The translations under genes and the position numbers were made by a program. From IMG/VR virus record IMGVR_UViG_3300010885_003070, positions 1-64,000 of that record: a stretch of DNA of 64,000 nucleotides. One strand, 5' to 3'. Shown here one piece after another: positions 813 to 56,850 of this stretch. Source of the stretch: a virus. Within the stretch, counting starts at the first letter, position 1. The number at the start of each line of letters is the position of its first letter. The notes beneath the pieces are model-generated. The model was not told the origin of the DNA, ran no database searches, and saw nothing but the letters and a program-made list of their open reading frames with translations.

Positions 813-2210
813 TTACTTTGGAAGACTTTTACCAAGTGCCTTCACATATTTAGCCATTGGACCCTGTAGATTTTCTTCAGTGATTGTCTGTGGATCGGCT
901 GACTCAACACGGTCAAGAACTGCATCAGCCTTAACTGATGTTGGGAAGTAATTCTCCCTTAGTGTTGAAATTTTATTGACAAAAGTTTCGTCGTCGGTAT
1001 ACTCGACGTTCTCAACAAGAGCAAGTAGCTTCTGAGCTTGTGTATCGGTTAGACCTTCACAAACTGTAGCGGCTAGTTCGACCTTGCGGGATTCAGCAAG
1101 CATAGATGTTAGTTCAACATTACGCTGAATTTCTTCGTTTAGTTTTGCTTCGAGTTCTTCGACTGTTGATGATAGTTCTTCAACAACCTGAACCTCTTCT
1201 TCTGGAACATCAATGTAATGTTCAGCAAATAGGGAACGGAGTCCAGAAATGAAATCTTCTGTAAGTTCGCTACGGAGAGCGGACTCAACAGCAACCTCAT
1301 TCTCAGCAATCCATTGTTCAACAACATAGTTGAGATAGTCATCAACATTGGAAGCAAGTTCTTCCATAATCTCTTCAACTCTCTCTTCTAGTGTCTCGGC
1401 ATAAGCCTGTTCTAGTAGAGCAACTTCCTCTTCTAGCTTTGCCTTAACAGCAGCTTCAAAGATTGTTGTAGCTTTAGCTTGGAACTCTTCTGAAAGGTCT
1501 TCGCCTTCGAGAAGGGCATTAACGTGTTCAGCCATATCGACTTCATAGGTCTCTAGGGCTTCTGCTACTGTCTCTTCTTCTGCTTCTTCTGAAACAAATT
1601 CAAAGTTCTCATCAATAGCAGCTAGAATTTCTTCTTCTGAAAGACCGGCTTCGATGCCTTCTTGAATAAAGTCTTCAAGCTCTTCGGAAAGTTCGATGTC
1701 TTCATCGCACTTTTCCATTTTGCCTTCATGCTTCTCTTCTTTCTCGTCTTCCTCTTCTTTTTCAGCCTTGTGCTTACGGGCTTCTTTAAGAGCCTTAACA
1801 CGTTCGGCGAGAGAAAGTTCTCTATTCTCTTCAACTACCTCACCGTCATCTTCCATCTCTTCAGCGACGGCAGATAGCTTCTTAGCAGGTTCAGCATTTG
1901 CGCCAGAACCCTTGATTGAGGTGTCTCTCTTCTCACCACCAGCAGCGGCAGCACCAAGGTTGCCAGATGGAAGTGAAGTAGGTGTCTGACCACCGAGGTC
2001 CTTAGCTTCATTATGCTTTGGATCGGCTTCAGATGATTTTGACTTTGGTTTTAGTGTCTTAGCATTAGCTGTTGATGCTGTTGAAGGATCAACAGGATTT
2101 GGGTTAGAAACAGAACCATTACCCACTGATGGATAATTGATGCCATATCCTTCCTCGATCTTGCTTTTACCTTCAAGAACAGCCTTTGCTGTTTCTGTTA
2201 GTGATGCCAT
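813..2210 (-). CDS. 22: Prohead core scaffold protein gp22
   Basis: Internal scaffold of the prohead, later degraded by gp21. The 465-aa product is highly acidic and almost entirely low-complexity or helical. A Ser/Thr/Pro/Asn-rich N-terminal third (about residues 20-110) is followed by Glu-rich predicted coiled coil (about 115-370, many EE/EL/LEE runs) and an ordered C-terminal tail ending in KALGKSLPK. Numerous (L/I)-x-E tripeptides offer protease sites. T4 gp22 is about 269 aa, so this one is much longer, mainly from the N-terminal disordered region. Assignment rests on composition and on its position between gp21 and gp23. ATG 2210 is preceded by a GGAG element. Confidence 0.88.
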   Translation of the reverse strand: MASLTETAKAVLEGKSKIEEGYGINYPSVGNGSVSNPNPVDPSTASTANAKTLKPKSKSSEADPKHNEAKDLGGQTPTSLPSGNLGAAAAGGEKRDTSIKGSGANAEPAKKLSAVAEEMEDDGEVVEENRELSLAERVKALKEARKHKAEKEEEDEKEEKHEGKMEKCDEDIELSEELEDFIQEGIEAGLSEEEILAAIDENFEFVSEEAEEETVAEALETYEVDMAEHVNALLEGEDLSEEFQAKATTIFEAAVKAKLEEEVALLEQAYAETLEERVEEIMEELASNVDDYLNYVVEQWIAENEVAVESALRSELTEDFISGLRSLFAEHYIDVPEEEVQVVEELSSTVEELEAKLNEEIQRNVELTSMLAESRKVELAATVCEGLTDTQAQKLLALVENVEYTDDETFVNKISTLRENYFPTSVKADAVLDRVESADPQTITEENLQGPMAKYVKALGKSLPK

Positions 2211-2248: not shown

Positions 2249-2896
2249 TCAAAGTTTTGAAATGTAATTTTCAAAAATTCGTAGAGCCACTGACTCAATT
2301 TCACTCTTTGAGGCTTCTGATATAAGTTTCTTAGCATGATAATATTCTTGCTCTTTCCACTTACCATTCTCAAAAACCCACTCTTTGCCTTCCATAATGC
2401 CCTGCACAAATGCGTCTGGTGCGCTTGGATCTGCTACAATGTCTGCCGCTGTAGCCAACTTGAAATCGTCTTGGACTTGTTGATATCCATTGTGTGGACG
2501 AAGAGACCCTACGCCTCTGGTCGACACACCAAGACTTGCACCACCATCTAGTAAGCTCTTAACAATCTTACCATTAGGAGTATCCATAATCTTTGCTTTA
2601 CCAATAAAGTTAGTACCATCAGCATATAACTTGGTGATCATATGCGAAACTCTGTCTAGATTGATTTGAGGATTCTCTGGATGACCTAGTTCACCAAATG
2701 CTCTGTTCTTAGCAACATACTCGGTGTTATATCTTGATGCTTCTTTTGAAAGCACATTCATAGGATATACACGACCGTTACGGTTCTGCTTTTCAGCCTG
2801 CATGAAGATGCCAGTGATAAAGTGGTTCTTGCCACCTTTACCATCGGCTTCTACTAAGTATTGAACGTCTTGTATTTCTTCTCTAATAAGTTTCAT
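2249..2896 (-). CDS. 21: Prohead core protease gp21
   Basis: Serine protease of the T4 gp21 / herpes assemblin-like fold that matures the prohead by cutting gp23, scaffold and core proteins after (L/I)-x-E. The 215-aa sequence has the family landmarks: NRNGRVYP (about 38-45), the catalytic His in FGELGHPENP (His72), the nucleophile in GVSTRG (Ser125), and an acidic candidate in ATAADIVADPSAPDAF (Asp152 or Asp156). Length fits the family (T4 gp21 is about 212 aa). The C-terminal helical tail (EIESVALRIFENYI) is probably an autocleavage or scaffold-binding segment. A late-promoter-like octamer lies directly upstream. Confidence 0.94.
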   Translation of the reverse strand: MKLIREEIQDVQYLVEADGKGGKNHFITGIFMQAEKQNRNGRVYPMNVLSKEASRYNTEYVAKNRAFGELGHPENPQINLDRVSHMITKLYADGTNFIGKAKIMDTPNGKIVKSLLDGGASLGVSTRGVGSLRPHNGYQQVQDDFKLATAADIVADPSAPDAFVQGIMEGKEWVFENGKWKEQEYYHAKKLISEASKSEIESVALRIFENYISKL

Positions 2897-5463: not shown

Positions 5464-6282
5464 TTACTGTGCAAAGTAGTTGGCAGCGATTTCTTTCTTA
5501 CGCTCTTCCAACTTTTCCATAGCTTTCTCTTGTAGAGCCTTCATAAGATTATCTTTCATTTCTGGAAGATTATCTTCAAGGATACAATCAAGAGCCTCGT
5601 TGATAAGTTCTTTATTGTCCATTTTAGTTTCCTCTTTGAATTGTTGACCGTATTTTGTTTGACCCTTTTCACCGCCTCTATCCACAATCAAGTCGGGTTT
5701 GTTGCCTATAGGACCTGATGTACCTTCGTAACCTGACATACCACCTTTGTTATCATACTCACCAAGTTCGTTTAGTTCACCTTTTCTATACTTATCATAG
5801 TTAGCTTGTAATGGATGTTTTGCTTCTTTAACAATTTTGTTAGAAGCGGTCTGTATATCATTAGGTGAATATGATGTAAAGCCCATATCAATAAGATGAT
5901 TATGATGTTTGTCTTTGATCATCTTTAGTATAGCACCATTCCAATCTTCATATGACATGGAATTAGTATCTATGTATTGATTGTCGGCATCAATTGCAGG
6001 TGTTCCTGTATTGAATCCTAAACCACCAATACCAGCAGTAACAGTTGTATTCTCTTTTACAATCTTTGTTTTTTCCATCTTGTCAAGTTTATCATAGTAA
6101 TCTGGTCTTTCACCAAGATGGTCTCTTGCAATCTCGTTAGCTTGTCTTGTGCTTGTAGTGTGTTCTTTCTCTACCTTGACTCCAGCAGCAATCTTCTTTG
6201 CCACTACTGATAAAGGTAGCTTCCACTTATCCGCAATCTGTTTTGCTGTTAGTGTCTTAACACTAGCAAGACCTTTAGACAA
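5464..6282 (-). CDS. Putative prohead core protein with DUF5661-like N-terminus (TTG start)
   Basis: 272 aa. The N-terminal region has the DUF5661-type signature VKVEKEHTTSTRQANEIARDHLG followed by PDYYDKLDKME (about 35-70). The C-terminal 55 residues (starting MDNKELINEALDCILEDN, ending EERKKEIAANYFAQ) are a charged helix resembling T4 gp67-type core proteins, and the gene lies immediately after portal, the gp67 position. Translation starts at TTG 6282, 3 bp after the portal stop, with an AAGGA Shine-Dalgarno at 6294-6290 and 7-nt spacing. An alternative reading is a two-module fusion in which the C-terminal part does the core work. The role is inferred from position. Confidence 0.55.
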   Translation of the reverse strand: MSKGLASVKTLTAKQIADKWKLPLSVVAKKIAAGVKVEKEHTTSTRQANEIARDHLGERPDYYDKLDKMEKTKIVKENTTVTAGIGGLGFNTGTPAIDADNQYIDTNSMSYEDWNGAILKMIKDKHHNHLIDMGFTSYSPNDIQTASNKIVKEAKHPLQANYDKYRKGELNELGEYDNKGGMSGYEGTSGPIGNKPDLIVDRGGEKGQTKYGQQFKEETKMDNKELINEALDCILEDNLPEMKDNLMKALQEKAMEKLEERKKEIAANYFAQ

Positions 6283-6285
6283 ATC

Positions 6286-8172
6286 TTAATCCTTATTTAT
6301 GTATGGTAACAATATACCATTTTCATTTAGATGTGTAACACTACCAGAACGATCAGCATAACGACCGTTGCCGATATACACTAGTCCCATATCTTTGGCT
6401 TCTTCTGCCACAGTCTTCTTCTTAGCAGCAGGCTTCTTCTCTGGTTTCTTAGGAGCGCCTTTGCTTGCCTTGATACGTTCTAGTTCAATCTTCTTATCCA
6501 TGATTTTAGTTTCATGGCTTTGATTTGCTTTTTCTGATTTACCTTGACCTTGATCTGGTCCAGTAATCTTGTCAACTTCTTTTTGTGTTATAGCCTGAGC
6601 AATTTGCTGTTGAGCACCAAACTCAATTTGGTTCTGCATATCTTGCTGTTGTTGAACCTGCTGATCAACCATTGCTTGTTGCTGTTGCTGTGCTAGAACA
6701 GCATTCTCTTGTTCCATCTGTGCGTTGATCTCTTCCATATCTTCGTCGGTTTGCTGTAGAATGTTCTTACGAACCCATTCAACACTGTAATACTTACCAA
6801 CGAATGGATCAACTTTAATAAGTGTATCGAGACGCATTGATAATAGTTCGGCGTCTTTTAGTTCATCAAAGTTATTGTCTTTCTTATAGTCATACCAAAT
6901 GTCTTCTTTAAACTCTTTCCACTCTTCTTCGGTACATACATTCTTGAGAATGAGTTGAACACGAAGAAGATCATCAAAGAGTGATGAAAACTTATTGCGT
7001 AGTCTTTGAACAAACTTATTGAACTTGATTTCGTCTCTGGTAATTTCTGTTGAACGACCAAGTGAGAAGCCTTGCTGAGGTTCTAGACGACCAATAGGAA
7101 CATTGAGTGACTTGTATAGTTTACTTTGGAAATACTTAACGTCTTCCATTTCACCTAGATTACGTGCGCCTTCTAGTGTAGAGATTTCAGTTCCTTTAGA
7201 ACCTTCACGGCGTGGCAACCAGAAATCTTCTAGCATTGATAGATGTTTGCGGTCGTCTTTGATCTCACCAGTATTACTATCGTAAACTAGTTTGTTACGA
7301 TACTTAACCATGATATCACGGACATACTGTTCCGCTTTAACTGTTGGCATGTTACCAACGTCGATATAGAAAACTCTACGCTCAGGAGCACGGCTTAGAC
7401 GATAGATAACAGTTGCGTCCTCTACCATGCGTAGATTGTTAAATGGTTTGATTGCTTTGTGTAAGTATGAAAGCACCATGGTCTGTTTTGGATCCATGAT
7501 ACCTGAGTTTACGTTGACAACGGAATCGACGGCAATCTTAGCACCAAGATTAGCACCAGCGCCGACCATACCTTTTTCATTATAGAGATAGTATTCAATT
7601 GTCTTTTTGATCAACTCAATACCTGTTTGAGGATCACGCATCTTTTGGATTTCACGTATCTTGCGAATACGACGAGGATCAATATACTTGATCTCCTGAA
7701 CACCCATTGCTGGATTAAGCTCATCGATAACAAGGTGATAGTATAATCTACCATCAACATACCAACGACGAAAGATGTCGTGACCCATGTTACCGAAGTT
7801 CAACATCTTTAGTAGTAGGTTAAATTCGTCTTCGATCTTTTTCTTAATAGCAGGTGGAGCTTTGACTTCATCCATATTGATTTCTACGGATGTGCCAGAG
7901 TCCTCAATAACGATTGCTTCATTGACGATTTCGTCAATAGCAGTTTCCATTTCAGGTTGAATAGCAAGTTCACGATACTTTGTGATAAGTTGTGTTTCGT
8001 TTCTAAACGTACCATCGAGATCAACATATGTACCATAATAGCCAGCACCTGCAACCGTAACAGCACCATCGTCTGTCTGCGGTATAGCAAATGTCTTTTG
8101 TGTTGGTTGACCGTATTGATCTGGTTTCTTATCCTGATCGTCGGCACCTATCTGAAAGCCAAATAAACGAAT
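6286..8172 (-). CDS. 20: Portal vertex protein gp20 (probable ATT start)
   Basis: Dodecameric portal of the head, docking site for terminase and neck. Canonical gp20 blocks are clear: AIDEIVNEAIV, DIFRRWYVDGRLYYH, YIDPRRIRKIREI, YRLSRAPERRVFYIDVGNMP, LEDFWLPRREGSKGTEI and EDVKYFQSKLYKSLNVP. The first ATG in frame (7950) would remove a conserved N-terminus: upstream codons read RLFGFQIGADD ... DDGAVTVAGAGYYG ... ETQLITKYRELAIQPE, typical of gp20. The frame is open to a TAG at 8232-8230 with no ATG, GTG, TTG or CTG, so ATT 8172, 8 nt after AAGGAG, is the best start (628 aa). The C-terminal about 140 residues form a Gln-rich then Lys/Pro-rich extension ending in GLVYIGNGRYADRSG, longer than T4 gp20 (524 aa). 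Confidence 0.93.
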   Translation of the reverse strand: MRLFGFQIGADDQDKKPDQYGQPTQKTFAIPQTDDGAVTVAGAGYYGTYVDLDGTFRNETQLITKYRELAIQPEMETAIDEIVNEAIVIEDSGTSVEINMDEVKAPPAIKKKIEDEFNLLLKMLNFGNMGHDIFRRWYVDGRLYYHLVIDELNPAMGVQEIKYIDPRRIRKIREIQKMRDPQTGIELIKKTIEYYLYNEKGMVGAGANLGAKIAVDSVVNVNSGIMDPKQTMVLSYLHKAIKPFNNLRMVEDATVIYRLSRAPERRVFYIDVGNMPTVKAEQYVRDIMVKYRNKLVYDSNTGEIKDDRKHLSMLEDFWLPRREGSKGTEISTLEGARNLGEMEDVKYFQSKLYKSLNVPIGRLEPQQGFSLGRSTEITRDEIKFNKFVQRLRNKFSSLFDDLLRVQLILKNVCTEEEWKEFKEDIWYDYKKDNNFDELKDAELLSMRLDTLIKVDPFVGKYYSVEWVRKNILQQTDEDMEEINAQMEQENAVLAQQQQQAMVDQQVQQQQDMQNQIEFGAQQQIAQAITQKEVDKITGPDQGQGKSEKANQSHETKIMDKKIELERIKASKGAPKKPEKKPAAKKKTVAEEAKDMGLVYIGNGRYADRSGSVTHLNENGILLPYINKD

Positions 8173-8180
8173 GGTCGTTA

Positions 8181-8186
8181 CTCCTT
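8181..8186 (-). promoter_or_regulatory. Strong Shine-Dalgarno that decides the portal start
   Basis: The minus strand reads AAGGAG, 8 nt upstream of the ATT codon at 8172. The same bases lie in a 5-codon mini-ORF, ATG TTC AAG GAG TAA (8192-8178), which could be a leader or coincidence. No other standard start codon in the portal frame is within reach of this site. Confidence 0.6.
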
Positions 8187-8200
8187 GAACATGATGAAAG

Positions 8201-8226
8201 TTCCATGGGACCGTAGCCCCATGGAA
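8201..8226 (-). promoter_or_regulatory. Perfect 9-bp hairpin between tail tube and portal genes
   Basis: TTCCATGGG (8201-8209) and CCCATGGAA (8218-8226) are perfect inverted repeats around an 8-nt loop. On the minus strand the stem is followed by CTTTCATCATG, not a clean T-run, so it is a poor match to a classical intrinsic terminator. It could attenuate or stabilise the gp19 mRNA end, or shape the 5' leader of the portal message, since it ends 14 nt upstream of the Shine-Dalgarno sequence. Confidence 0.5.
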
Positions 8227-8248: not shown

Positions 8249-8806
8249 TTAAGCGCCAGAAATATCTGTAGAACCGTCGAGTGCTTCCCACCATTGATAG
8301 GCGAGTGTAACACCGTATTCTTCGATCTGATCGCCTAGTCCCCAATCAAGTTCAATTGGAGCAACATCAGTAGGAAAGCAACCAACAATCTTGTATGACT
8401 TGATTGGAGGACCAGCTTTACTAAACTGTGTTACTAATGCGTCTGATTGATATGAGAACGCTGCTAGAGCCTGTGGAGCACGAAGGTTAGAAACGTGACC
8501 ATTGATTAGGTTTAGCCATGTTTCTAAGTTTCTACGGGCAACAAAGTTTTCATCATTGATGATTGTGAATGACCAATCTGGGAATGTTCTTGTTCCGGCG
8601 ATCTTGATTTCACGACCGAAATAAGGAACACTGATTGATGAAACACCATCACCTGGGAGTGAGGTTGCCCTCACTCTGAAGATGACATCTGGGGTCAATG
8701 GCGCAGCACCAAGAATTGGTGGTAGAGCCATTACAACTTCAAATAAACTTGGACGAGCGCCGTCGTTTACTAGTGTTGCTCTAAATTGATTGACATTAAA
8801 AGCCAT
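8249..8806 (-). CDS. 19: Tail tube protein gp19
   Basis: Forms the stacked hexameric rings of the inner tail tube. The 185-aa length is close to T4 gp19 (163 aa). Recognisable segments are MAFNVNQFRATLVNDGARPSL at the start (quoted in part: FRATLVNDGARPSLFEV), FRVRATSLPGDGVSSISVPYFGREIKIAGTR in pieces (ATSLPG, VPYFGREIK), the TIINDENFVARRNLETW block, and YKIVGCFPTDVAPIELDW near the C-terminus. It directly follows the sheath gene as in T4. An AATAAATA late-promoter-like octamer lies 21 bp upstream of the ATG. Confidence 0.94.
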   Translation of the reverse strand: MAFNVNQFRATLVNDGARPSLFEVVMALPPILGAAPLTPDVIFRVRATSLPGDGVSSISVPYFGREIKIAGTRTFPDWSFTIINDENFVARRNLETWLNLINGHVSNLRAPQALAAFSYQSDALVTQFSKAGPPIKSYKIVGCFPTDVAPIELDWGLGDQIEEYGVTLAYQWWEALDGSTDISGA

Positions 8807-8827: not shown

Positions 8828-8835
8828 TATTTATT
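8828..8835 (-). promoter_or_regulatory. Late-promoter-like octamer upstream of gp19
   Basis: The minus strand reads AATAAATA, one mismatch from the T4 late consensus, overlapping the gp18 stop and followed by an AAAAGGAG ribosome-binding stretch. A separate promoter would allow high tail-tube expression. Confidence 0.4.
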
Positions 8836-10579
8836 AGAATTTGCCAACAATTTCGGAGAAGGCAACACCAGTTCTAACAGCCACAAAGTTAAGATGAATA
8901 AAGTTGATAGAACGGGCTGGCTTGACATAAATGTCCCCGATGAATTGATTACTATCGATGACTTGTGGTGTATTGTTTGTTTCGTCACAAACTACACGGA
9001 AGTCATAGATACCACGACGACCTTTAACGTCTCGTAGGAATGGTTCTACAAGAGCAACGAATTGTGATCTTGTAAATTCATCGTTGAACTCAAAGAGTGA
9101 ATACTTAGCTGCCTTTGAGATTGACTTTTCAAGAACGATAAACAATCTACGAACATTGATACGATCAAATGCTGATGGCTTTGTCTGTAGTGTTTTATCA
9201 CCATAGAGAACAGTGCCTTCGCCTTTGAATGTAACAACTGGATTGATGTTGTTCTTGTAGAGGTTATCTCTGTCAGCCTTTGTTGGCTGCCAAGAAAGTT
9301 TTGTAACATTCTTGATCTGACCACGGTTAAGACCGGCTGGTGAGAACCAAGCATCTCTTGTCTGATCGGTGCGGGCACAGAGACCAGCAACGTCACCATT
9401 GAGAGGAATCCAACGATACTTGTTGTTATACTTGTCAAACTGCTTCTTCCATCCTGAGTCCATGAAGGCATATGAAGATGAACCAAAGAAGTTTCTTGTA
9501 ACAAGTGACTTTGTTACTTCTGAGCCAGGTTGATCAACAACGTCTGTGTATTGTGGTGAAACGAATACAACAACGTCGCCACGACCAAATGAACCACCAG
9601 GAGCAGCAATGTTATCGATAACATACTTAGAAACGGTGTTTGAAGAACCGCCCATCATGATTAATGATGTGTCGTAAGCATCGGTATCAGAAAACTTAAC
9701 ATAGGAATTCTGAAGCTGTCCATCAGTTGGAGTAGCTAGAACACCGCCTGCTAATGTAAAGTTGAATGAAGCATTTGACTGCGAGAATTGAACACCTGAT
9801 GCTGTGTTACCCCATGTTGAGGTTTGAACAACAGGAACAGTTGTGTTAGAAATCGCATGGTTGATTGGCCATAGGAATGCTGAACGGTCCGCAATAACAC
9901 TAGCATAGTAGTTTGAAGAACCGTCATCATTAGTAGCGTCAACTGCTTTTGAAAGGTTTGAGTATCTTTCAAGAACTGAGTTTGCAATACCACCAGTGAA
10001 TGTACCTTTGGTATCAAGAACGATAATGTGCATTTCGTCGTTAGCACCACCACGGTCGGCAACATACTTTGATGTTCCTGGAGGACCATTGAACTGTGCA
10101 GCTTGTTCCCAATTTGCCCAATCGGCGTCAGAAGAACTAACATTTGCTTTAGCAAACACGCAAACTTTAATCTCGTTGCCGAGTGTACCAGCATAACGAG
10201 CAGCGAACATGCCGTATGCAGGGCTATTGGTAGCGAATACGTCCCAATTGGTATCCCAATCGTCACGATTTTTAACTAGGGCTGCTGTGTTACCAGATGT
10301 AGCGCATTTAGCGGCGAATGTATTGGCTGAGCGAACTACTCTGAGGTTATCACCATAAGCCAAGAAGTTAGCTGCGGTGAAGAATGAAACTGCTGTATTA
10401 TCTGATGGTTGACCGAACCAGCGAACTAGTTCAACCTCATTAGCAATTGTAGTAACCTCGTCAATAGGACCCCAATCAAAGTTTCCGGCAAATGCCCCTT
10501 CTGTAGTAGATGCGGCAGGAACAACGGTCGTAAGATCAATTTCGGACCATGTCACGCCTGGGGAAAGTGAATATGCCAT
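8834..10579 (-). CDS. 18: Contractile tail sheath protein gp18
   Basis: Sheath subunit that contracts around the gp19 tube. The 581-aa product begins MAYSLSPGVTWSEIDLTTVVP, the typical N-terminal linker arm of phage sheath proteins. It has PGGSFGRGDVVVFVSPQ and the C-terminal domain with WIPLNGDVAGLCARTDQ, AWFSPAGLNRGQIKNV, LYKNNINPVVTF and RINVRRLFIVLEKSI, the conserved sheath core. It ends with a beta segment (DIYVKPARSINFIHLNFV) that interlocks neighbouring subunits. T4 gp18 is 659 aa, so the protruding domain is somewhat smaller. It sits between gp17 and gp19 as expected. Confidence 0.96.
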   Translation of the reverse strand: MAYSLSPGVTWSEIDLTTVVPAASTTEGAFAGNFDWGPIDEVTTIANEVELVRWFGQPSDNTAVSFFTAANFLAYGDNLRVVRSANTFAAKCATSGNTAALVKNRDDWDTNWDVFATNSPAYGMFAARYAGTLGNEIKVCVFAKANVSSSDADWANWEQAAQFNGPPGTSKYVADRGGANDEMHIIVLDTKGTFTGGIANSVLERYSNLSKAVDATNDDGSSNYYASVIADRSAFLWPINHAISNTTVPVVQTSTWGNTASGVQFSQSNASFNFTLAGGVLATPTDGQLQNSYVKFSDTDAYDTSLIMMGGSSNTVSKYVIDNIAAPGGSFGRGDVVVFVSPQYTDVVDQPGSEVTKSLVTRNFFGSSSYAFMDSGWKKQFDKYNNKYRWIPLNGDVAGLCARTDQTRDAWFSPAGLNRGQIKNVTKLSWQPTKADRDNLYKNNINPVVTFKGEGTVLYGDKTLQTKPSAFDRINVRRLFIVLEKSISKAAKYSLFEFNDEFTRSQFVALVEPFLRDVKGRRGIYDFRVVCDETNNTPQVIDSNQFIGDIYVKPARSINFIHLNFVAVRTGVAFSEIVGKF

Positions 10580-10655: not shown

Positions 10656-12335
10656 CTATAGCCGACCGTCCCACTTATATCCAAGATCATCAAACGGGTA
10701 TAGCTGTTCTCTTTCACGAACCCATCGATCACCACTAGCATCTATCTCGTCCACAACCTCATCTAATCCGTTATCAATGAAACCAAATGGCACATTTTCT
10801 ACATCTTCAAGATAAGCAATTTCTTTCTGTAGAACATAACGTATGTCATTAGAAACGGTTTCTTTGAACAATTTCTGGGCTGTTAACCAGCCAAAATGAA
10901 CCAGCGTCATAGCTAGGTCATCGTTTGCTCCTTCTTCTGCCGCAAAGGTCTTCTTTGTTGATGAGAAGGAATATAGCTCTGTAATTGTATCCTCATCGTT
11001 AAGTATTAGTTTATCACTCTCAACTAGCGTCTTGAGGTTAGCACAACCAATCATCTTTGACTGGGCTGTGATTTTGAGACCAAATGCTAGTTTATTCTTA
11101 CCAGCAGCAAACCCACCTGAGGCCTGCATACCCTGTTTACCCTTTAACTGAAACTTTAGCAGATTTTCATATGCCAGTTCATAGTGTAGAATGTCTGCGA
11201 CCTGTAGACCAATAGAATTGATTTCGATAAGAACGAAAGCGTCATTATACTTTCTTGCCGCTGAGTAGATAACTGCCGGTAGAAGCATCGGGCTAATTTC
11301 GTTATTTCTATATTTAGCTACCTGGCGATATGGGATTTGTGTAACGTCAAAGATAGAGAATGTGGAGTAATCTAGTCCCTGCCCTTCAGCAACATCGGCA
11401 CACAATACATATGTGTGTTTGTGTTCTGGTTGCTCAAAGATATCCATACACTCCATACGAGTGATTGGTTCTTTCCAGTGTAGTGAAGCAAGTTTGGCAC
11501 CACTGATTAGTGTGTTAGATGAACCTAAGAACTCACAACCAAACTCTTGGTCAAACTGACGTTGGCTAGTGTTTCGTATAGTTTCTGCCGCCCATGCTTC
11601 ATCTCTGCCCGGCACCATTGACCAGTGGATCTCAATAGGCTGATATGTGCTAGTCTTGTCAATAGCTTTCTGCCACATCTTGTAGAAAAGATTCATTCCA
11701 TTTGGTGTAGAAACGATAACGACCTTAGATGTTTTACCAGATGAAATAGTAGGATAAGTTGAATTAAAGAACTCTTCAGCAATGTTGTTTGGAACGAACG
11801 CAAACTCATCAAGAAAGATTATGTTAAATGAGAAACCACGAACTGAGGAGCCTGATGTTGAGTCAGCTAGAACTCTTGAACCGTTAGCAAGATAGATAGA
11901 ACCTTTGTTCCATTCTTTGATGCCTTGCTTCAAGAACATAGGTAGATACTCAAAAGCAAGTTTAAGTTTCTGTAACAACTCACGGGCAGTTGGAGCACGG
12001 TTAGCTAGAATAGCGACAACAAAGTTTTCGTTGAATAGAACCTGATGAAGAATATATGCCACACTTGTAGTTGACTTACCAACCTGTCGTGGTAGCTTAC
12101 AGATAGAGAAACGATTATCATGGAACGTCTGTAACATACGTTCCTGAAAGTCCCACATAGCAAATGGTATGAGACCTTTATCGACGTTGATGATTTTGAT
12201 GTAAGTCTTGGCAAAGTAAACGGGATCGTCAGCACACTTGATATATTCATCAAGTTCTGCTTGGGTAAACGAATGGCGATACTGCTCATTAGGCAGATTC
12301 GGATTGTTTTGATAACTAAACGGAGTCCTTGCCAT
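10656..12335 (-). CDS. 17: Large terminase subunit gp17 (packaging ATPase-nuclease)
   Basis: Motor that translocates DNA into the prohead and cuts the concatemer. 559 aa. ATPase domain: Walker A LPRQVGKSTT (81-90, Lys87), Walker B IIFLDEF (172-178, Asp176, Glu177), coupling motif STPNG (209-213). Nuclease domain of RNase H fold: VLCADVAEGQGLDYS (Asp314), VLIEINS (Glu371) and a later acidic motif GANDDLAMTL near the C-terminus. The intervening SGSSVRGFSFN is typical of T4-like enzymes. The start at ATG 12335 overlaps the gp16 end by 20 nt, a common arrangement of these two genes. All catalytic residues expected for the family are present. Confidence 0.97.
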   Translation of the reverse strand: MARTPFSYQNNPNLPNEQYRHSFTQAELDEYIKCADDPVYFAKTYIKIINVDKGLIPFAMWDFQERMLQTFHDNRFSICKLPRQVGKSTTSVAYILHQVLFNENFVVAILANRAPTARELLQKLKLAFEYLPMFLKQGIKEWNKGSIYLANGSRVLADSTSGSSVRGFSFNIIFLDEFAFVPNNIAEEFFNSTYPTISSGKTSKVVIVSTPNGMNLFYKMWQKAIDKTSTYQPIEIHWSMVPGRDEAWAAETIRNTSQRQFDQEFGCEFLGSSNTLISGAKLASLHWKEPITRMECMDIFEQPEHKHTYVLCADVAEGQGLDYSTFSIFDVTQIPYRQVAKYRNNEISPMLLPAVIYSAARKYNDAFVLIEINSIGLQVADILHYELAYENLLKFQLKGKQGMQASGGFAAGKNKLAFGLKITAQSKMIGCANLKTLVESDKLILNDEDTITELYSFSSTKKTFAAEEGANDDLAMTLVHFGWLTAQKLFKETVSNDIRYVLQKEIAYLEDVENVPFGFIDNGLDEVVDEIDASGDRWVREREQLYPFDDLGYKWDGRL

Positions 12336-55498: not shown

Positions 55499-56824
55499 TT
55501 AGAAATTCAGAACGATTTTGTAATCTTCGGCTTGGTCATCAGCCCTTTGAATAGCAGTCATGTTATCTGTATATAGTAGATTTCCGCTACGTGGTTCTAA
55601 TGTTGGATTGGTAATAGCACTAACAAAACGGGCAGCGGTTGTATTAGCACCAATAAGCAAGTCTTTTGATGGTATACCATTTGTATTTGATAACTTGATA
55701 ACGTTATTACCAGAATCCCATTCTACAACATGCCCACTAAAGAATGATGATGCTAATGAAGCACCTTGATAAACTACCTCATCTTCGACATACTCAACTG
55801 AGGTACCGTTCAATGATAGAACTGTTAATTGTGAGAATGCTGGTAGAGATGACATTGTTGTAACACCGTATAGGCGAGGATCTTCAATCAATGAAATCTG
55901 TCTGTAATCGTTATGTGTGGTCAATACACCGCTTTCGGTATCTTTGATCTGAACATCCATAATCAAATATGAACCACCAAGTTCTATTATAGGATCTAAT
56001 CCGTGACCACCCTGAGGACTGATGATTGCTCTAGCTGATGCTCCAGCACCTGTAGTCGAACCAAGCGTAACATTAGCATATGTATAGCCATAACCTAGAT
56101 TGTCAATGACGATTGACTGAACAGTATTTGATGATGTATTCAATACAGCAAAGGCGTTAGCATAAAGACCATCGCCTGTGATTGATACGACAACATCGTT
56201 TGCTGTGTATCCAGAACCTGCGTTTGTTACATTGATAACATGAATAGCACCATCAATAGCATTCTCTTGAACGATCCATTGCTGGCTGTTATCGCTTTGT
56301 GCTAGAGTTTTGACTGGAATAAATGATGGTGTCAAAAATCTTAGTTTCTCTTCCGCAGTTAGACTATACATATACTTCCAGTTATAACCATCTGCGGTCT
56401 GAAAGTGTGTAGTTGTAACAAGAATGTTTGGCATAACCGTAGAAGGTGCGCCATTGTTATTAGATAGACACTTGAATATGTTATGCTCGGATGTCATAAC
56501 ATAAAAGTTGTATGAAGAGTCGAATAATTGTAGGGAATCAATTAGATCGTCATAAGCATCATAAACAGTACCAGATGTCCAGTTGATACGTGGAATAGCA
56601 TGTCTGATATTGTTACCTGTAATTCTTTTGCCACCAATCATGTTCTTCCAGATTTGATTGGTATTGACTGCGGACGTGTTAGCCTGAGGTGGAGCAGCAT
56701 CGTTTGCCCAAGTAGCGGCTCGACCAAAAGTCAAATAGACGTTTGATGATGATGGTTCTGATACGGATTCTTTGACTTGCTTGGCGACAAAGATATCGAG
56801 ATTTTTAGAACGTGACGATGACAA
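55499..56824 (-). CDS. 8: Baseplate wedge protein gp8
   Basis: Wedge subunit joining gp7 and gp10 in the T4 baseplate. 441 aa (T4 gp8 is 334). The family segments are present: VYLTFGRAATWANDAAPP, IWKNMIGGKRITGNNIRHA, VMTSEHNIFKCLSNNNGAPS, DGYNWKYMYSLTAEEKLRFL. The extra length is two inserted modules NAGSGYTANDVVVSITGDG and NLGYGYTYANVTLGSTTGAG, the same GxGYT module found in the two preceding baseplate proteins. An exact TATAAATA octamer lies 27 bp upstream. Confidence 0.9.
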   Translation of the reverse strand: MSSSRSKNLDIFVAKQVKESVSEPSSSNVYLTFGRAATWANDAAPPQANTSAVNTNQIWKNMIGGKRITGNNIRHAIPRINWTSGTVYDAYDDLIDSLQLFDSSYNFYVMTSEHNIFKCLSNNNGAPSTVMPNILVTTTHFQTADGYNWKYMYSLTAEEKLRFLTPSFIPVKTLAQSDNSQQWIVQENAIDGAIHVINVTNAGSGYTANDVVVSITGDGLYANAFAVLNTSSNTVQSIVIDNLGYGYTYANVTLGSTTGAGASARAIISPQGGHGLDPIIELGGSYLIMDVQIKDTESGVLTTHNDYRQISLIEDPRLYGVTTMSSLPAFSQLTVLSLNGTSVEYVEDEVVYQGASLASSFFSGHVVEWDSGNNVIKLSNTNGIPSKDLLIGANTTAARFVSAITNPTLEPRSGNLLYTDNMTAIQRADDQAEDYKIVLNF

Positions 56825-56850
56825 AGGCTGATCCTTCTCTAATTATCTAC

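Follow-up and report, generated by a model that had tools for sequence, protein, structure and literature searches.

An apparent AUU start codon, conserved in the portal gene of a clade of T4-like phages

Where does translation begin in a T4-type portal gene whose conserved N-terminus is preceded by no standard start codon, and why might a weak start be kept there? We asked this of a 64,000-nucleotide stretch of DNA (the window), taken from a virus record of 81,073 bases that belongs to an uncultured T4-like phage.

Identity and context of the portal gene

The gene at 6286-8172 had been described from the sequence alone as a T4-type portal gene (gp20). This identification is firm, with a full-length match to PF07230 (Portal_T4; E = 2e-177 / 3e-175, profile positions 2-433 of 433). 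The genes on the minus strand run gp17, gp18, gp19, gp20, a DUF5661 gene, further genes, prohead protease and scaffold. The window therefore contains the T4-type order of terminase, sheath, tube, portal and, further on, protease. The features of the locus are as follows.

10656-12335, minus strand: terminase gp17
8834-10579, minus strand: sheath gp18, by DNA-level match to annotated sheath genes and by its position, which is that of the sheath in phages Mosig and Melnitz
8249-8806, minus strand: tail tube gp19, ATG start (PF06841, E = 2e-5, just below the curated cut-off)
8201-8226, minus strand: predicted intercistronic hairpin with a UACG loop, between gp19 and gp20
8178-8192, minus strand: micro-ORF ATG TTC AAG GAG TAA, overlapping the Shine-Dalgarno (SD) sequence
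8181-8186, minus strand: SD sequence AAGGAG, followed by the 8-nt spacer TAACGACC at 8180-8173
8170-8172, minus strand: ATT codon, almost certainly the start; present in 14/14 distinct clade members and matched in relatives by GTG/TTG/ATA starts at the aligned codon
6286-8172, minus strand: portal gp20 (PF07230), 628 codons plus stop when read from the ATT
5464-6282, minus strand: DUF5661 gene 3' of the portal, TTG start at 6282
2249-2896, minus strand: prohead protease (Peptidase_S77)
813-2210, minus strand: scaffold

We also considered a cyanophage carrying photosystem genes and rejected it, as six related records gave no match to PF00124.

The portal frame lacks a standard start codon near its SD sequence

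On the minus strand, the open portal frame spans 8229-6286 and is bounded upstream by an in-frame TAG at 8232-8230. The preliminary description stated that no ATG, GTG, TTG or CTG lies between this TAG and the ATG at 7950, and that AAGGAG (8186-8181) stands 8 nt 5' of an ATT at 8172-8170. Both statements held when we rechecked them in the window sequence. ATG 7950 is codon +74 counted from the ATT. A crude scan of ~55 large ORFs identified the portal as the sole ORF without a standard start near its SD sequence; two others appeared to use TTG (6282, 56824) and the remainder ATG. The sequence AAGGAGTAACGACCAT occurred once in the window, with no second copy when up to 3 mismatches were allowed. 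The portal gene combines what would be expected of an AUU-started gene: a conserved N-terminus compatible with no standard start codon, an SD sequence at a proper distance, and a codon conserved in relatives.

The ATT codon is conserved across the portal clade

We scanned IMG/VR and retrieved 317 encoded portal relatives, 80 of which were kept. A second scan, using the N-terminus pattern with the start codon left open, gave 66 stretches. Alignments were anchored at the residue after the start, clade counts were restricted to distinct sequences with 400 residues or more, and the portal tree is a quick version.

The preliminary description had named the start codon of close relatives as a check. 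ATT was present at exactly this codon in 14/14 distinct portals of the window's clade (SH-aLRT 99). Sister clades had GTG at the aligned codon, and further ones had TTG and, in one case, ATA. Among 37 distinct portals starting one codon before [KR]LFGF, there were 20 GTG, 14 ATT, 2 TTG, 1 ATA and 0 ATG starts, whereas ATG was used by all distinct copies of gp19 (64/64), gp18 (44/44) and gp17 (20/20) in the fetched loci; neither the portal nor the neighbour-gene counts are independent of ancestry. A 38th sequence (L042, of L042/L043) has regained ATG via a lysine-rich N-terminal extension (MMAKHPKKSKRSRSADSEQLDEQ-RLYGF).

In-frame stops lay 5-6 codons upstream of the ATT in 11/14 members, without ATG, GTG, TTG or CTG in between. 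ATT alone was common to all members among the few codons left between stop and N-terminus, and the SD spacing was 7-8 nt in every ATT member. The 74 codons from the ATT to ATG 7950 were under purifying selection (median dN/dS 0.10 vs 0.08 for the rest). Within-clade pairwise dS ranged from 0.5 to >2, near saturation, and some pairs were incomputable through saturation. Conservation of the ATT in 14/14 members, with silent sites near saturation, indicates that its position is more than chance. Clade conservation, upstream stops, the aligned GTG/TTG/ATA starts, fixed SD spacing and purifying selection together indicate that translation almost certainly starts at ATT 8172.

A start at ATG 7950, with the upstream part noncoding, is the call expected from an ATG/GTG/TTG gene caller, as this is the first standard start. 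However, the upstream residues (RLFGFQIG...LITKYREL) are conserved at the low dN/dS given above, the starts of relatives align with the ATT, and in cultured relatives an ATG start (MAELFGF) lies at almost the same position. We consider a start at ATG 7950 very improbable.

We also considered a base error at the ATT, and frameshift or readthrough from an upstream ATG. The micro-ORF ATG overlaps the site, and in one relative (L003) an ATG stands in frame 11 codons upstream. Yet the same ATT recurred across many independent metagenomes, which disposes of the base error that the preliminary description had raised. The upstream in-frame stops and the varying frame of the micro-ORF also stand against frameshift or readthrough, as does the lack of an Rfam match in four loci, where no known intron family was found. 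These explanations are already refuted by the relatives, and we give them next to no probability.

The leader ORF and the intercistronic hairpin

The preliminary description had reported a 5-codon ORF overlapping the SD sequence. This micro-ORF is present at 8192-8178, but it has 4 codons plus a stop. An ATG stood 19-21 nt 5' of the ATT in 13/14 members, and its ORF ended between -12 and +5. This arrangement would suit a model in which AUU initiation needs ribosomes that have just terminated nearby, either on a short leader ORF, which in the window encodes MFKE, or on an HNH gene in some relatives. HNH stop codons do overlap the portal start codon in three loci (L041, L031 and L231: CATTAAA, CCATAAAA and AATTAAG). 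However, the leader ATG has no SD sequence of its own, and its frame and length (2 to 7 codons) vary among relatives. The ATT has a full SD sequence of its own, and GTG relatives are without a leader. We judge that a dependence on termination is improbable.

Further candidates were rejected at this site. A conserved leader peptide is contradicted by the varying frame and length, although the ATG is kept, and a frameshift from the micro-ORF into the portal is ruled out by the varying frames together with the in-frame stops. As a start codon, the ACG in GTA ACG ACC ATT fails because it is GGG in about half of the clade and lies only 2 nt from AAGGAG. An intron with an upstream exon would have to fit a gp19-gp20 gap of just 65-81 nt in HNH-free members.

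Between gp19 and gp20, the window sequence folds into a perfect hairpin at 8226-8201 (TTCCATGGGGCTACGGTCCCATGGAA). Most relatives have a UUCG loop at this site and the others have other loops, with differing stems. T4 intercistronic regions contain hairpins of this UNCG-loop kind.

Two types of initiation region and their movement between phages

We compared SD strength as the mean match to the anti-SD complement. This was 6.5 bases for ATT portals, 4.95 for GTG portals and 4.56 for nine ATG-start outgroup portals. In bacteria, weak starts are accompanied by SD strengthening (PMC5622118). Two types of initiation region were found, AGGAGTaACGrCc-AUU/AUA (the AUH type) and AAAGGA-GUG. In the 22 nt upstream of the start, AGGAGT-ACG-C- is common to most AUH members, and AAAGGA plus A/T-rich sequence to GTG/TTG members. 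An AUH-start scan added L231 (ATT) and L234, L237, L238 and L243 (ATA); as it selects such starts, these were kept out of the counts.

The type of initiation region did not always follow the portal body. The upstream 22 nt of L031 matched AUH members at 8-16 positions and GTG/TTG members at 3-8. In the portal-body tree, the sisters of L031 and L231 are the GTG phages L028 (SH-aLRT 96) and L033 (SH-aLRT 90), respectively. Because both carry the AUH region, it seems to have been swapped into other backgrounds by recombination. Less simply, the region would be ancestral and lost repeatedly.

A related HNH-like endonuclease gene, assigned by eye from the motif EIHHxDGNRxNND, was found between gp19 and gp20 in three loci.

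L031, 1893-2501: HNH-like gene between gp19 and gp20
L041, 1789-2502: HNH-like gene between gp19 and gp20, with a frameshift that appears to disrupt it
L231: HNH-like gene on the reverse strand, directly 5' of the portal

An AUU/AUA-type region stands beside the HNH gene in all three, two of which are otherwise GTG-type phages. A natural guess, from a sample of three loci, is that the initiation region moves by homing in which the flank is co-converted. A broader reading is possible, and we put it forward tentatively: across a large T4-like group, portal dosage may be set at initiation through two exchangeable non-AUG cassettes, one pairing AUU/AUA with a long SD and the other GUG/UUG with a short SD. 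These would recombine between lineages, sometimes with an HNH homing endonuclease gene, and AUG would be selected against.

Retention of the ATT and a possible limit on portal dosage

To gauge retention of the ATT, we used silent sites across 11 diverged members. Only 7/99 fourfold columns and 2/19 invariant-Ile columns (1 of them as all-ATT) were unchanged. As so few silent columns are fixed, the chance of bare retention of the T is ~5-10%. The ATT shared by related sequences is one evolutionary event followed by retention, and retention alone is only moderately improbable. By itself it is suggestive of selection without proving it. The case for a kept weak start comes from combining retention with the absence of ATG among the homologues, a pattern that suggests the ATT is kept on purpose in the clade.

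The explanation that we favour overall, and think probably correct, is initiation at AUU by the ordinary initiator tRNA, with output held low and partly rescued by the SD sequence. AUU 8172 would be read by fMet-tRNA, as in infC, throughout the clade. The portal would then begin fMet-RLFGFQIG, with the predicted N-terminal peptide (f)MRLFGFQIGADDQDK. The third base of AUU mismatches the initiator anticodon, and discrimination, by IF3 in known cases, would lead to less initiation. The strong AAGGAG at 8 nt would compensate in part for the weak codon. On balance, the late mRNA would yield less portal than gp18 or gp19, whose SD sequences are of the same kind but precede AUG.

The T4 portal protein is present at 12 copies per head, and reduced output would fit this need. 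That the ATT limits expression is plausible and agrees with the absence of ATG; dosage limitation as the reason for the ATT is somewhat more probable than not. From sequence, we infer lowered output, its role in AUU retention and IF3 as the agent. In S. aureus reporters in poor medium, AUU/AUA starts, which come with extended SDs, yielded ~10% of the output of AUG (PMC13009471). IF3 represses AUU-type starts, and infC itself has ATT (PMC5472188). The strong SD sequence could bring AUU output near the GUG level.

Alternatively, the AUU start may be a tolerated relic, the strong SD sequence being sufficient and low output not being selected. The longest SD was found beside ATT, and the initiation region seems to travel as a recombination block with which the ATT may hitch-hike. 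Yet ATG is one base away and occurs in 0/37 distinct homologues, while it is universal in the three neighbour genes. In bacteria, moreover, start codons change to AUG significantly more often than away from it (PMC5622118). We consider a relic unlikely, with an appreciable share of the probability still resting on it.

Comparison with known AUU starts

E. coli infC resembles the portal gene in being essential, in starting primarily at AUU and in keeping a non-AUG start across relatives (ATC in Streptomyces, AUA in S. aureus; PMC5472188, PMC13009471). It differs as a host gene that regulates its own discriminator (IF3 autocontrol), whereas a phage portal cannot feed back on IF3. In E. coli pcnB and in S. 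aureus cvfC1/ccpN, an inefficient AUU/AUA start limits expression. The S. aureus starts are conserved and have an extended SD (PMC13009471), and the limit on pcnB output is given in PMC13009471 as a citation of Binns and Masters 2002. These are cellular genes in which the effect was measured, whereas the portal is a phage morphogenesis gene known here from sequence alone.

Initiation at AUU is also said to occur in a T4-type phage: Nivinskas reportedly described, in 1992, an internal AUU start in bacteriophage T4 gene 26 that yields a smaller second product. That AUU is internal, whereas the full portal protein here would have no start but the AUU. The closest cultured portals, those of Pelagibacter phage Mosig and Methylophilales phage Melnitz (Kyanoviridae; 54-56% identity), share the gp18-gp19-gp20 order with the window. 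Their gp20 starts one residue earlier, with ATG.

Our literature searches found no AUU-started portal. AUU starts as such are already known from infC and pcnB, and the portal gene of this clade adds a real and conserved new case, in a phage structural gene and an unusual evolutionary setting, to a kind that is known but very rare. A clade that keeps AUU in an essential structural gene, with relatives that never use ATG, is a natural experiment on weak-start retention. It also lets one test directly whether head assembly requires a limit on portal dosage. The portal protein is in wide use as a marker for T4-like phages, and gene callers limited to ATG/GTG/TTG would drop 74 residues from these portals.

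Two other weak starts were seen in the window. The TTG at 6282, which adjoins the portal, has AAGGA 7 nt upstream, and TTG starts the DUF5661 gene in 10/25 distinct relatives. In the large minus-strand ORF at 55499-56842, the SD-backed start appears to be TTG 56824.
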